22,426 nucleotides of DNA from a virus. The stretch spans positions 1-22,426 of the IMG/VR virus record IMGVR_UViG_3300042924_001095; one strand, written 5' to 3'. Of this stretch, positions 8,301-18,177 are shown in pieces. Numbering within the stretch: the stretch's first letter is position 1; every line of letters begins with the position of its first letter. Below the pieces are notes generated by a model that saw only the letters and a list, made by a program, of their open reading frames with translations, did no database searches and had not been told where the DNA came from. Made by a program: the position numbers and the translations under genes.

Positions 8301-8679
8301 CATCTGCGCTAGCGTCTAATCCTAACGCCTTCATCTTAATAAATGCGCTAGTTACTTCCGCAAGGCTAAAAGGCGTGGTGGCTGCGAAGTTCTTGATCCA
8401 AGCAAACTCGATCTCAGCGTTGCGGCTGGAACCTGTAACCGTAATCAACGATGAGTTGAGAATGTCGAACTCGCGCTGCACTTGGATGAGCTTAGTTGTA
8501 AAGGCTTGTACGGATAAAGCACCGGCAATGGCACCAATAGCAGTCGTGACGCGATCAATAGACTTTTCAACGCTACCCATCGCGCTGTCTACCGTCTTTT
8601 TAGCCTTGTCCATGTCCTGCTGTAGCCGGACAATGTTTGCAGCCATCTCAATCGTAAGCGTTCCAACTGTTCCGTTCAT
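5362..8679 (-). CDS. Tail length tape measure protein
   Basis: At 1105 residues the longest gene in the window, in the expected place after the tail chaperones. The N-terminal ~260 residues form the typical tape-measure region (helical, then ITVTGSSRNAEIEFAWIKNF and PFSLAEVTSAFIKMKALGLD). A hydrophobic Ala-rich stretch (about 273-335) could cross the host membrane on DNA ejection. A long charged coiled coil (about 345-690) contains two related repeats (about 413-455 and 497-540), and a Gly/Ala-rich part (about 735-860) precedes the C-terminal domain. It spans the tube lumen and sets tail length; by the usual ratio of about 1.5 Angstrom per residue the tail would be very roughly 150 nm. ATG 8679 overlaps the chaperone stop as ATGA and lacks a strong ribosome site. 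Confidence 0.95.
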   Translation of the reverse strand: MNGTVGTLTIEMAANIVRLQQDMDKAKKTVDSAMGSVEKSIDRVTTAIGAIAGALSVQAFTTKLIQVQREFDILNSSLITVTGSSRNAEIEFAWIKNFAATTPFSLAEVTSAFIKMKALGLDASADALKSYGNTASAMGKSLNDLIEAIADAATGEFERLKEFGIKANAEGDRVTLTFRGVSTNIGKNAAEITQYLRSIGEVDFAGAMENRANTLDGAISNLSDTWDELFRTVNKGLFGDLLLDSVRGLTSLLSGLGSGVTTLGDAIERNKTQLMIWAAIFTGGALLAALPLITAAVGALTTGVIALSAAFAANPVALAIMAVTAAAVPAVNAISAMVAENKKAESATKAVYETESQRAAFLEANASPAQQKQIALTKEQIKEIEKQEEAYKKLIEKLREQNSEMLLEEANHGKLTAAQRQALDVMLQIQNGTLKLTEQRKQEIVEILNANIALEAEAKKREDAKKAAEEQTKAYEKVTSSISDQIQKLADGLGPLNEMTAGQRAAYDVLIKYLPELNKLNDDQKIRIRQLIEELIEQEDLNQALKDGEASYGRYKDAQQKSYDQQRKTIEGIDAEIAKLRESQSQVGLTAKEIGLLEVAKIRDRAASMDRASQLALEADFDAETAENYRLQAVRLRELADLKEQGVHVQSAKDAAEAWKKTTDELSRGLTDALMRGFESGKGFFDNLLDVLRNKFKAFVAESIIKPFMDGVAEGITALTNPLTLSIKSLVSSIMSPITGVIQSTMSSVASGLGLTLPGATSAAGGAAAASIIGGGAAATSIGQGGLAVLGEGAGAAAAGGGVLSAIGSNVAAAGSAIASGATAIAGGISSGISAAATALGPAGLAVLGAAAIASVLDGGETRQGGRYSWTRGSGLSFAGGPSGGEIQGPEIRSQIDDYVASINAQLSSLGSAAMVESLAFGLESSKNGKGGTFLGGRLTTGQTFGDNVSSPNAWNYSESLTPEQAAAQFQSEVSFGAADAIAAALGRARGTSPGAGSGGSSGLQDYDQDLTGLATGTNFVPSDMVAMLHKGEAVVPAQYNPAVGGENVVAAEIRSLRDEVVQLRFEARATAINSAKMARLQDNWDVRGLTVKTDVDQPLETVTV

Positions 8680-14769: not shown

Positions 14770-15369
14770 TCAGATCCCCATCTTGATTCGATAAGGTGTC
14801 AAAAGGTGCATCATCCCAAGCGGATAAGCTGTGACCATGTTTCCGACGTTGACGCTCTCTCTGTTCTCGTACAAATGCCCGATCATCATAAGCATCGCTT
14901 GATAGATCGGTTTCGGAAGGTTCCAGCGCGTAGGGCTTCCAGCTGCATAGCCAGCAACAAAAGTAACCGTAACTGCGTTCTTTTGTGCCTTAGTCTGAGG
15001 CCATGCGTCAACGTATTGCAGGACCGCTGGCTTGTCGTTAGGGTCTAAACGATAGGCGGTCGACGAAAGCGTCTGAGTATTTCCATCACTATCGACATAT
15101 TGAACAGACGTAATCGATCTCACCGGCCAAATACCAAGGTCTAAATCGTCTGTGGGGAATTCGTCGTAATAGGCTACGAAAGTTTGCTGCGTCAGCGCCA
15201 AGCCCGTATAGTTCTCAGCATCCTGCCGAGCAACGGTGATGAGTGCAGATACTAACGAATCATCTGGATGCTGCCCAGCCTCCAAATCCAAGCGCAAATG
15301 CAACTGGGCCTGTGCCAGCGTAATAGGCTCAACGGATTGGTCGCCCTGTGCGATCAGCTTGGGTAGCAT
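14770..15369 (-). CDS. Head-tail connector protein, phiE125 gp8 / HK97 gp6-like
   Basis: 199 residues with the layout of the phiE125 gp8 family: PITLAQAQLHLRLD at the N-terminus, DDSLVSALITVARQDAENYT with the following TGLALTQQTFV, then LGIWPVRSITSVQYVD and a helical end (PKPIYQAMLMMIGHLYENRE). These connectors form a ring under the portal. ATG 15369 lies inside the end of the glycosyltransferase gene (41-base overlap), with AAGGA about eight bases upstream. The spacing to the next gene is one base. The N-terminal acidic and amphipathic helices and the final hydrophobic helix fit the family well. Confidence 0.9.
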   Translation of the reverse strand: MLPKLIAQGDQSVEPITLAQAQLHLRLDLEAGQHPDDSLVSALITVARQDAENYTGLALTQQTFVAYYDEFPTDDLDLGIWPVRSITSVQYVDSDGNTQTLSSTAYRLDPNDKPAVLQYVDAWPQTKAQKNAVTVTFVAGYAAGSPTRWNLPKPIYQAMLMMIGHLYENRESVNVGNMVTAYPLGMMHLLTPYRIKMGI

Positions 15370-16063
15370 TCTTGCCGTCCTTATCGTTCATGTAATACTG
15401 AGAATCTGCCCCGAGCCATTCTCTCAGTTTTGACCCATCGCGGTCAAATTCTCCATAGAAATGTCGATCATGCCCTGAGCCTATACCTGCTCGCCCTGGT
15501 AATCCTTTGATGCCGACTGTGAGCTGCGAGTCGAACAAGTGTCTTGATTTAGCCTTTTCCCATAGCACGATGTCGATGAATTTGTACTCGGTTGTCGCAA
15601 TATCTCGAAATAGTGTTAACGCATTGCTACGCATAGCCGTGGAGCACAGGCTAGCGTGAGTCATGTTCTCCATGCGTCGCCAAATGTTGGTTTGCACATT
15701 GTAATAACGAGCACGTCGTTCGCCTATGAGCTCAGCGTTCTTAAACTGACCGAAAATAGTCTCAAGCCATTGTGGTGCGTAATAGTCGTCATCTTCAATG
15801 ATGACAACCCACTCGATGCCGCCAATCTGTGCAAGCCCTGCCTGTAGGTTCCTTGCTTGTGTGTTTGAGCCATCCCAGAACGGCTCCGGTCTTACAAAAA
15901 CCAGCTCCCAGTGCTTGCGGCTGAATGTCGTTTGTTGTTGCTGCTTACCATCGTCTACGATGACCCAGCGAACGGGTCCGCTATAGGTCTGCCTTGCCAT
16001 CCAGATTTGGCACAAATCCCAAGCTCGCTGCCTTTCTCCGGTGGTTGTCAGTAGGGTTAGCAT
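15329..16063 (-). CDS. Glycosyltransferase, GT-A / family 2-like
   Basis: 244 residues with GT-A fold signs: an N-terminal LLTTTGERQRAWDLC that pairs with VRWVIVDDGK (nucleotide-sugar site, V36-D38), then WVVIIEDDDYYAP (residues 85-97), an acidic DxD-type metal site. The C-terminal part (HLFDSQLTVGIKGLPGRAGI, then GHDRHFY) resembles phage glycosyltransferases near head genes. Sugar donor and acceptor are unknown; candidates are a virion protein or the host surface. ATG 16063 overlaps the stop of the morphogenetic-type frame by 7 bases, so the two genes are coupled, and the 3' end overlaps the connector gene by 41 bases. Confidence 0.85.
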   Translation of the reverse strand: MLTLLTTTGERQRAWDLCQIWMARQTYSGPVRWVIVDDGKQQQQTTFSRKHWELVFVRPEPFWDGSNTQARNLQAGLAQIGGIEWVVIIEDDDYYAPQWLETIFGQFKNAELIGERRARYYNVQTNIWRRMENMTHASLCSTAMRSNALTLFRDIATTEYKFIDIVLWEKAKSRHLFDSQLTVGIKGLPGRAGIGSGHDRHFYGEFDRDGSKLREWLGADSQYYMNDKDGKNATQADRTGRPIR

Positions 16064-16698
16064 TGGTCTATCGGTTTGCGTTCAAAGCATGTCAACGTAG
16101 TGTGTCTGCTTGCGTTGATAACCTCTACGCCTTGCTTTTGCAAGTCTGCTGCAAGCCTTGGGAATTTAGCTCGCCAGAGCTCATAGGGCTGTGTTGTTGT
16201 TAGCGTTGGCGGATGCTGGCCGAACCAGTGCGCTTCGCCTTTTAAGCTAGGGCCGCAATCAAACCCAAGCAAGATGATTCTGTCAGCGCCCCAGAGATAC
16301 GCAAGATTGATAGCCTGATAGCCACTGTTGCCGCCCTGATGAATCTTGTCATGAAGTCCAAGCCCAGGATGCGATTCAGAGCCTATGCGATGGATTCCGT
16401 ACTTTGTTGCGGCAAACTCGTCTTGAGTCCATAGCTCGCCTTTGAAGGCCTGCCTCGCTTCTTGGTGGTAGACCTTCCACCATTGTCCATCACATGCGTA
16501 GAGAACGTCTGCAAAGGGGGCTCGTTTGTAACTGTCGTTGATTGCGATAAATCGCCAAGGCTTTGTGCCAGCGAGCTCGCAATCCTCTGCGGTGAGACTT
16601 GGGCCGGAGGCGAAGATACAGACAGTCTCGCCCCGCCAGCGTCCGTGGTCTCTGAGGCTGACGGCATTGTGCGAACTGTCCTGCGAGGGTTTAGGATT
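16057..16698 (-). CDS. Morphogenetic-type protein (MptE/DUF115-like) without its own start codon
   Basis: This frame is open from 16698 to 16057 and encodes a convincing ~190-residue domain. TVCIFASGPSL sits near the N-terminus, followed by FIAINDSYKRAPFADVLYAC, LWTQDEFAATKYGI, GGNSGYQAINLAYLWGADRI, LLGFDCGP, EAHWFGQHP and VINASRHTTLTCFER. The order matches phage proteins often labelled 'norphogenetic' with a GPSL nucleotide-sugar-like motif. No ATG, GTG or TTG exists before GPSL, so translation must enter from the preceding ORF by a -1 shift (see 16686-16692), use a rare start, or the gene is broken. It overlaps the glycosyltransferase ATG by 7 bases, which supports it being translated. A start at TTG 16272 would lose the domain. 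Confidence 0.7.
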   Translation of the reverse strand, partial: NPKPSQDSSHNAVSLRDHGRWRGETVCIFASGPSLTAEDCELAGTKPWRFIAINDSYKRAPFADVLYACDGQWWKVYHQEARQAFKGELWTQDEFAATKYGIHRIGSESHPGLGLHDKIHQGGNSGYQAINLAYLWGADRIILLGFDCGPSLKGEAHWFGQHPPTLTTTQPYELWRAKFPRLAADLQKQGVEVINASRHTTLTCFERKPIDQC

Positions 16699-16826
16699 TC
16701 AACGCAACCGGCTGACTCTAGCTGTTCAGCGAGTCCAATCGGTAGTTTGAGGCGTTGCTTGCGTGTGACGCTTCCAATTCTGGAGTCTGCAAAGTGTTGC
16801 AGTGCTAAGACTTCAATAAGTTGCAT
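16383..16826 (-). CDS. Small head-region protein; N-terminal ~47 residues look genuine
   Basis: ATG 16826 opens 147 codons. The first ~47 (MQLIEVLALQHFADSRIGSV ... KLPIGLAEQLESAGCVEIL) resemble small proteins next to phage capsid genes with the pattern 'V-x-V-L ... G-x-x-x-x-P ... A-x-x-L-x-x-x-G-x-V-E'. The rest overlaps the conserved frame below in another phase and is Ser/Thr-rich, with an AT-hook-like KKRGRPSKAS near residue 120; it may be non-functional. At codons 45-47 the frame carries the heptamer A AAC CCT, which could shift ribosomes into that frame, giving a 256-residue fusion. The ribosome site is weak (AAGAAA). A terminator-like hairpin lies just upstream. Confidence 0.55.
   Translation of the reverse strand: MQLIEVLALQHFADSRIGSVTRKQRLKLPIGLAEQLESAGCVEILNPRRTVRTMPSASETTDAGGARLSVSSPPAQVSPQRIASSLAQSLGDLSQSTTVTNEPPLQTFSTHVMDNGGRSTTKKRGRPSKASYGLKTSLPQQSTESIA
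16686..16692 (-). promoter_or_regulatory. Candidate -1 frameshift heptamer A-AAC-CCT
   Basis: In the 16826 frame the codons CTA AAC CCT form a formal X-XXY-YYZ heptamer. Slipping back one base gives AAA CCC then TCG CAG, entering the conserved frame 16698-16057, which has no start of its own. CCC in the A-site position is not a favoured slippery codon set in studied systems, so this is a hypothesis that explains the missing start, not a firm call. Confidence 0.35.
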
Positions 16827-17005
16827 AATTTCTTCGCGGGTGATGAAAAAGGCCCAGGGCTTGTGACCTTGGGCCTATTCTGCCATGTCGCGTAGCAAAA
16901 GGCTGCGCGTTGTGCCGAGTCAGGGAAATCGCGTCTTGCTTCGGAGTCAGATATACAACGGCTGACAAAATCGCGTTCGCTTTCTCCCGTCCTCGGCGTT
17001 GGCAT
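16805..17005 (-). CDS. Small conserved phage protein after the capsid gene
   Basis: 66 residues. The start MPTPRTGESERDFVSRCISD, followed by DFPDSAQRAAFCYATW, is a recognisable short phage motif ('E-x-x-F-V-x-R-C ... D-x-P-D-x-x-Q-R-x-A-x-C-Y-x-x-W'), often found near head protease and capsid genes. It has two Cys and one Trp in fixed spacing, but its function is unknown. ATG 17005 overlaps the capsid stop as TAATG, so it is coupled to capsid translation. The C-terminal third (PKVTSPGPFSSPAKKLCNLL) is encoded across a terminator-like hairpin and overlaps the next gene's start by 22 bases. Confidence 0.7.
   Translation of the reverse strand: MPTPRTGESERDFVSRCISDSEARRDFPDSAQRAAFCYATWQNRPKVTSPGPFSSPAKKLCNLLKS
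16846..16876 (-). terminator. Intrinsic-terminator-like hairpin inside the 3' end of the small gene after the capsid
   Basis: On the minus strand AGGCCCA (16876-16870) pairs with TGGGCCT (16856-16850), with two more G-C pairs possible after one mismatch, and the stem runs directly into a T tract (16850-16846). This is the best terminator shape in the window. It lies within coding sequence, so passing ribosomes would open it; it may set the high capsid mRNA level relative to downstream genes. Confidence 0.6.
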
Positions 17006-18177
17006 TAGAACGTGCCTTTGATAAAGGCGGCAGGACGGTAGACCGTCAGAGCGAGACGCTCTTCGGCCAGCAGCGTTGCCATGTTCTTTTTGAAGTTGTC
17101 GCCATCTTCATAAGAAATCTGGACAGCTGCGTCCATGCGATCCCAAACCTGAGCGCCCATCGTGAAAGCACCAACCAAGAACGTTCCTTCAGCGATCGAG
17201 TTGGTAGCGACAACGCGCTTGCCCCAGAGCTGAGGGCCAGCAAGTGCCATTGGGTTAGCCATGATGTACTGACCATCAGTTGCTTTGGTCAGTTCGATGG
17301 CTTCCCAGTCCTCAGGGTTGATAACAATCGCGTCGGCTGCGTACTCGCTCAGTGCTGCCTGAGTGATTGCCTTGCGAAGGGTATCGATGCGGGTGTCGCC
17401 AGTTGCGCTGCGGTTGTAGGCAGTGTTATTGCCGCTTGCCAACAAACCAGACAACGAACCGGAAGTGCCAGCGCCGTTAAGCAGCTGATCTTCCTCCTCC
17501 AACTTCAAGCCATAGAGCAGACGGCCATTGACGTACGACTCAAGCTGAGGCGCATCATCGAGAACCTGACGGCTAACAGGGATGAAGTGAGCAAGTGTCA
17601 CGACAGCAGCGTTTGCGAGCGTGAAGGTGATGCCGCTCTCAGGCTTGGTAACGTTCTCACGATTTGGGCTGCTGTACTGCGCTGCAGCGTTGTTCGTGTA
17701 AACGTTTTCCTTCGTGAACTGCACAAGGTTGCTAGCAGTGCGACCAACGGGCATAAGATCACGAATCGTCAGTACGCGATTGGGATTGTTGATAATCCCA
17801 GGTACGCGCATGTCAGCAACGAGTGGCTGATTCTGGCCGGTTGCGTTGACGATGGCGGTCTTGAGCTCAACGCGAGCAAACTTGCTGCGACCTGCTGACA
17901 TAGCCAAAAATGCTTCCGACTTGGTGAGTAATTCGCCCGCGGTTTCGCTCTTGCCTTCGGTCGAGCCAGCATCAGAGATGCGACGCTCAAGGTCTAGGCA
18001 CTTGTCAGTAAGTTCAGCGGCTTTCGTGCTGAGTTTGTCGAGAGCTGCTTTGGTTTCGCTGTCCAACTTCTTGACCGATTCAATCTCGTTGTTGGCTTTT
18101 TCCATCCAGCCCTTAAGCTCGCGGCTGGTGTCTAAGAGTTTGGCCTGGGTTTCGGCCAGTGCTTTGATTTCGTCCAT
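17005..18177 (-). CDS. Major capsid protein, HK97 fold
   Basis: 390 residues. Residues 1-85 are a Lys/Glu-rich coiled coil (the delta/scaffold region, removed by the head protease in HK97-like phages). The rest follows the HK97 fold layout: AFLAMSAGRSKFARVELKTA, a VLTIRDLMPVGRTASNLVQF N-arm/E-loop entry, ESGITFTLANAAVVTLAHFI, SRQVLDDAPQLESYVNGRLL (spine helix), LEEEDQLLNGAGTSGSLSGL, and AIVINPEDWEAIELTKATDG to AFIKGTF. It forms the icosahedral shell. ATG 18177 has AAGGA about six bases upstream. The gene lies between the protease and small accessory genes, the standard place. A 299-codon antisense ORF across it is a shadow. Confidence 0.97.
   Translation of the reverse strand: MDEIKALAETQAKLLDTSRELKGWMEKANNEIESVKKLDSETKAALDKLSTKAAELTDKCLDLERRISDAGSTEGKSETAGELLTKSEAFLAMSAGRSKFARVELKTAIVNATGQNQPLVADMRVPGIINNPNRVLTIRDLMPVGRTASNLVQFTKENVYTNNAAAQYSSPNRENVTKPESGITFTLANAAVVTLAHFIPVSRQVLDDAPQLESYVNGRLLYGLKLEEEDQLLNGAGTSGSLSGLLASGNNTAYNRSATGDTRIDTLRKAITQAALSEYAADAIVINPEDWEAIELTKATDGQYIMANPMALAGPQLWGKRVVATNSIAEGTFLVGAFTMGAQVWDRMDAAVQISYEDGDNFKKNMATLLAEERLALTVYRPAAFIKGTF

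Follow-up and report, generated by a model that had tools for sequence, protein, structure and literature searches.

Gene organisation behind the capsid gene

The window, that is, the whole stretch of DNA analysed here, comprises 22,426 nucleotides (positions 1 to 22,426 of IMG/VR virus record IMGVR_UViG_3300042924_001095), and all the features described below lie on its minus strand. The cassette is anchored by the gene of an HK97-type major capsid protein (17005..18177; Pfam Phage_capsid, 8e-53). Behind it, a 66-aa ORF (16805..17005, MPTPRTGESERDFVSRC...), for which no convincing family match was found, separates the capsid gene from an ORF of 147 aa (16383..16826), with the start of which it shares 22 nt. 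The 147-aa ORF, the frame of which is referred to as the 0 frame, encodes a folded N-terminal domain of 47 aa followed by a basic tail containing KKRGRPSK. The -1 frame of the same region (16057..16698) runs from a first codon AAT at 16698 to a TAA stop at 16059-16057, and encodes a sialyltransferase-like / MptE-like domain (phrog_4603) with the motifs GPSL, HWFG and TTLTCF. The ATG (16063-16061) of the next gene, which encodes a family 2 glycosyltransferase (15329..16063), overlaps the end of this domain. When the 3.2 kb region was compared with phages by blastn, only capsid genes were matched.

The first-pass annotation had described the -1 frame as open from 16698 and start-less before GPSL, and all of its coordinates were confirmed. 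The frame contains no ATG, GTG or TTG anywhere between 16698 and 16057, and before GPSL no CTG, ATT, ATC or ATA was found apart from a single ATC, which lies inside the core strand directly preceding GPSL. Moreover, a TGA stop at 16699..16701 closes the frame just 5' of the proposed slip site, so that translation in the -1 frame cannot originate further upstream. The slip site itself, a slippery heptamer A_AAC_CCT at 16686..16692, is in phase with the 0 frame, which reads ATC CTA AAC CCT, just as had been noted at first pass. The length calculated there for the product of a -1 slip, 256 residues, was also found to be exact; 209 of these residues are read in the -1 frame 3' of the slip site, and the predicted fusion junction in the window phage is ILNPSQDSS. 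The N-terminal domain (MQLIEV...EILNP, 16686..16826) would be common to both products. Five nucleotides 3' of the heptamer begins a predicted stem, with its 5' arm GACAGTTCGC at 16671..16680 and its 3' arm GCGA(G)ACTGTC at 16621..16631.

Overlap, slippery motifs and stem in relatives

Loci with the second domain (171 in total) were gathered from IMG/VR, genomes, a D3-like set and phage records, and were dereplicated at 80% identity into 49 clusters. Whether the two domains are separate or fused in homologues had been raised in the first-pass annotation; in 41 of the 49 clusters the domain overlaps a 0-frame ORF, always in the -1 register. In the other eight (P1-like PmgO, PAJU2, phiNP and others) it stands alone with its own start; relatives with an ATG and no heptamer were confined to these eight, all of which also lack an upstream overlapping ORF. 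Three phages (L082, L085 and L096) carry two copies of the domain, a start-less frameshifted copy with C_CCT_TTG being followed by one with its own start, an ATG in L082 and L096. The overlapping arrangement was found in phage contigs and in prophages, including those of Pseudomonas, Solimonas, alphaproteobacterial and Omnitrophota genomes; judged from these sequences, it recurs across dozens of diverged lineages of tailed phages, Pseudomonas phage D3 among them.

Most of the overlapping clusters have a slippery motif in the expected codon phase. An in-phase X_XXY_YYZ heptamer is present in 29 of the 41 clusters, whereas each of the other two phases has one in 5 clusters and codon shuffling predicts 7.4; a slippery heptamer lies at the matching place in 49 of the loci that were fetched. 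The motif itself varies (A_AAC_CCT/C/G, C_CCA_AAC, C_CCA_AAG, C_CCT_TTG/C/T, G_GGA_AAC/A and G_GGC_CCG/T), and such exchange of the motif while its position stays the same points to selection on slippage itself. The remaining 12 clusters have no perfect heptamer within the scanned stretch, although a C_CCN tetramer is present in most of them. In Psp6 a T_TTT_TTG lies upstream of that stretch, and in L081 and L095 neither a heptamer nor C_CCN was found within it. C_CCN occurs in phase in 36 of the 41 clusters, against 19 and 17 in the other phases and 24.6 by shuffling.

Assays in E. coli give some indication of how these motifs may perform. Of the 64 heptamers assayed with a pseudoknot, 61 shifted above threshold; C_CC.A_AA.G was among the strongest (54% with the IS3 pseudoknot), and the tetramers C_CC.U and C_CC.C were also shift-prone (PMC4066793). 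A_AAC_CCT of the window may have a low shift rate, since CCN second codons were weaker shifters than AAN or UUN and A_AA.C_CC.A was one of the three heptamers below threshold in the same assays (PMC4066793).

The stem was analysed in an ungapped alignment (A6) of the 27 loci in which the heptamer lies at an equal distance from GPSL. The helix is formed by columns 13-22 with columns 62-72, its first base lying 5 nt past the heptamer; 92.3% of the cells pair, and 8 of the 10 stem pairs show compensatory changes on both sides, as in the arm pairs GACAGT/ACTGTC, GGCGAC/GTCGCC and GACAAC/GTTGTC. Its covariation score was 0.503, compared with 0.212 in shuffles and reached by none of 500 shuffles, a test which kinship among the loci inflates; in slid controls, which retain that kinship, displacement by 1-3 columns lowered pairing to 54% or less. 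RNAalifold recovered the stem unaided, and it came out on top when all 6-bp helices were scanned. Folding relative to synonymous shuffles gave a mean z of -1.05 over 30 loci; for L002, which is identical to the window here, z was -1.75. Against dinucleotide shuffles the fold z-scores were weak in most loci, and the stem of the window alone (z -0.76) was not unusual in stability; covariation is stronger evidence for the stem than these z-scores. The D3-like group has a stem at the corresponding place, which was given less weight because the conserved GRW and ASGP codons partly dictate it.

The two predicted products and their selection

Within two clades, selection changes frame at the junction. 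Upstream of it, dN/dS in the 0 frame is 0.12-0.16, and downstream it is about 0.03-0.15 in the -1 frame for most of the domain, where synonymous change (dS) is reduced 55-110 nt past the slip site. Among 29 diverse sequences of the second domain 17 columns are invariant. This purifying selection bears out the first-pass view of the -1 frame as a living gene and not a decayed one. The 0-frame tail, which runs about 20-100 codons over the domain, was assessed in the 41 clusters by shuffling codons with the amino acids of the domain fixed. RGR occurs in the tail of 11 clusters, compared with 1.0 expected, and the charge of the 0-frame C-terminus is 4.6, compared with 2.0 expected; by this measure the tail is itself under selection. 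Since tail and domain are both constrained, both products seem to be used and appear functional. An AT-hook in the 0-frame product was considered and set aside, the Pfam match being weak (E 0.024), and RGR was treated as a basic motif. At first pass, the covarying stem and the selected 0-frame tail had been missed, as had the wide occurrence of the arrangement, which extends to D3.

The N-terminal domain (47 residues) was modelled by AF2 with a pLDDT of 92.6. In the window it gave nothing significant against Pfam and PHROGs, and 4 of 26 N-terminal domains match DUF7210 (best 1e-5). Its neighbours are small phage proteins, including DUF7210 members and a protein of the D3-like phage PP9W2. In the PDB, its fold matched the lambda gpFI C-terminal domain (2lsm) with a TMq of 0.79 but a weak Foldseek E of 0.1, and GINS subunits, which score equally. 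In a profile search the same gpFI chain ranked second with a weak HMM E of 0.48. The domain is a DUF7210-like phage domain and possibly related to the gpFI C-terminal domain. In lambda, gene FI lies directly behind the coat gene. The N-terminal domain gene likewise lies behind a capsid gene, an HK97-type capsid gene being found 18-76 nt upstream of it in 10 of 10 relatives tested. By analogy, a capsid-binding role of the domain is a lead.

The second domain was modelled with a pLDDT of 92.4 and is disordered before residue 14. It matches phrog_4603, labelled alpha-2,3-sialyltransferase, at 1.6e-46, and it scores 27.3 bits against Pfam MptE-like, below the curated cut-off of 34.6. The best fold match is 8sd5, an MptE-like 6-hydroxymethylpterin diphosphokinase (E 6e-4, TM 0.47), with sialyltransferases among the next. 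Although 8sd5 and the GT29/GT42 sialyltransferases are thus its best fold and profile neighbours, they differ from it considerably, with identities of about 15% or less and TM-scores <0.5. From the model and profile matches, we infer that the domain is a transferase, probably acting on glycans.

The genes 3' of the domain in relatives encode GT2-like glycosyltransferases, methyltransferases or head-tail connectors. Tight coupling to the glycosyltransferase, put forward at first pass, was seen as an overlap of stop and start in the window and in L009, L010 and L070, but in other relatives the neighbours differ. In L027 (3001-4557) the domain continues in frame into about 310 more residues (VLGMQGLGDNLHQR...), which have no Pfam match. 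Similar proteins with GLGDN occur in L044 and L173 as separate genes after the domain, and by eye the L027 extension and the GLGDN proteins seem to resemble heptosyltransferases. The P1 gene pmgO clusters with a glycosyltransferase gene, and is dispensable for lytic growth (PMC10695390).

Probable frameshifting mechanism and known phage systems

A programmed -1 ribosomal frameshift very probably joins the 0-frame ORF to the second domain. This was the reading favoured by the first-pass annotation, and it gains support from relatives, which keep the -1 overlap, in-phase heptamers, the covarying stem and the frame switch of selection. Most ribosomes would stay in the 0 frame and make the small protein consisting of the 47-residue domain and the basic tail. 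The stem 5 nt downstream would stall some of them at A_AAC_CCT (16692-16686), where, upon a back-slip by one base, AAC CCT would re-pair to AAA CCC and reading would go on in the -1 frame, yielding the 256-residue fusion of the N-terminal domain to the sialyltransferase-like / MptE-like domain. We infer that the slippage is ribosomal and partial. Ribosomes that did not slip would stop 320 nt before the overlapping start of the glycosyltransferase, and the glycosyltransferase gene may therefore also depend on frameshifting.

Expression of the second domain as a separate gene, from a non-canonical start within the overlap and by coupling to 0-frame translation, would be in keeping with the overlaps and coupling that are common among phage head modules. 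GTG, TTG or ATG does occur somewhere in the frame in 7 of the 41 overlapping clusters (D3, L033 and L077 included); most members of the D3 group have a GTG or TTG at -60, and L008, L033 and L077 have a TTG. However, the possible start at -60 is missing in the close relatives L160-L164, ATG, GTG and TTG are absent from the -1 frame in the other 34 clusters, and 17 of the 41, that of the window included, lack every one of seven start-like codons (ATG, GTG, TTG, CTG, ATT, ATC and ATA) before GPSL. In L161, L164, L170, L180 and L182 the frame does not open until the slip site, 36-45 nt before GPSL, which is just wide enough for that site. A start of this kind, which would also leave the in-phase heptamers and the covarying stem unexplained, is considered very unlikely.

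Slippage of RNA polymerase could join the frames where long homopolymers lie at the junction, as in a few relatives (nine T in L091 and L093, a run of A in L084), but in the window and most relatives there are runs of only 3-4 identical bases, and slippage by the ribosome is indicated both by the stem and by the dependence of the motif on codon phase. Transcriptional slippage was rejected as a general mechanism, its probability being put at very little indeed. In L091 and L093 the nine-T runs lie just 5' of GPSL, and transcriptional slippage could there stand in for ribosomal slippage. A start-less frame is also the usual sign of an indel introduced in sequencing or assembly, or of a decayed gene. 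Independent contigs (L002-L035, L058-L078) have the same frames, and so do finished phage genomes, those of D3 and Psp6 among them; together with the low dN/dS and the invariant columns of the domain this makes an indel or decay improbable in the extreme.

Head-protein -1 frameshifts are known from gene 10A/10B of T7/T3 and from Lactobacillus phage A2, and Ig-like domains are added to phage structural proteins in the same manner (PMC5009743). As in those systems, frameshifting here would give a head protein an additional form with an extra C-terminal part. In the known systems, however, it is the major coat protein itself that is extended, often by an Ig-like part, whereas here a separate small protein would receive an enzyme-like domain; moreover, a great distance separates the slip site from the 0-frame stop, which leaves a long overlap coding in both frames. 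The joining of a small capsid-neighbour protein to an enzyme-like domain would therefore be the new element.

The same -1 register, at the same place behind the capsid gene, was found in orf6.5/orf7 of the laboratory phage D3 (NC_002484) and in 00047/00048 of Psp6. The slip motif of D3 is C_CCA_AAG, and its basic RGR tail is shared with the window; that of Psp6 is T_TTT_TTG. Both pairs are annotated as two genes, the second starting inside the domain past GPSL. The start annotated for D3 orf7 (NC_002484 5951-6409; L038 2588-3046) is an internal ATG situated about 80 nt past GPSL, so that the annotated protein lacks GPSL and the conserved N-terminal strand; the Psp6 annotation has the same fault. 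Judged by its relatives, the start of D3 orf7 is probably misannotated, and the annotation of well-known genomes would be corrected accordingly. P1 PmgO, PAJU2 gp10 and phiNP have a homologous sialyltransferase-like domain but differ in that it stands alone with its own start and without the N-terminal domain. No earlier description of frameshifting in this gene pair was found in the open-licence literature, which probably does not include the older D3 papers.

The N-terminal domain may bind the capsid, in which case a minority of its copies would bring the second domain to the particle. A wider proposal, built by analogy, is that in HK97-type phages a -1 frameshift mounts a sugar-modifying enzyme on a capsid-binding protein at a set ratio, the particle or packaging complex thus carrying the enzyme, while the dual-coded RGR tail of the unshifted product contacts nucleic acid. 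We put this forward tentatively, as something that may well prove otherwise. An enzyme tethered on a capsid-neighbour protein would be a testable idea on the modification of phage particles.

In the tail module, the G/GT frameshift of the tail assembly chaperone (Xu, Hendrix and Duda 2004, as cited in PMC4378225 and PMC2628397) involves other genes. As far as it is represented in those citing papers, it resembles the present case in being conserved over distant phages despite a changing slippery sequence, and in having its first domain in both products. The pair behind the capsid gene would join the tail chaperone as another frameshift family that distant tailed phages keep even as its slippery sequence is replaced, and its set of exchangeable motifs would show which slippery sequences bacterial ribosomes accept in nature. 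The window also has the usual tail assembly chaperone frameshift, at 9140-9134 on the minus strand, where an in-phase A_AAT_TTT lies in the ORF 9610-9110 and a -1 slip continues YAEVAEELTLYARQLGW... into an ORF ending at 8676. This is presumably the first frameshift implied by the first-pass annotation, which had called the one behind the capsid gene a possible second.
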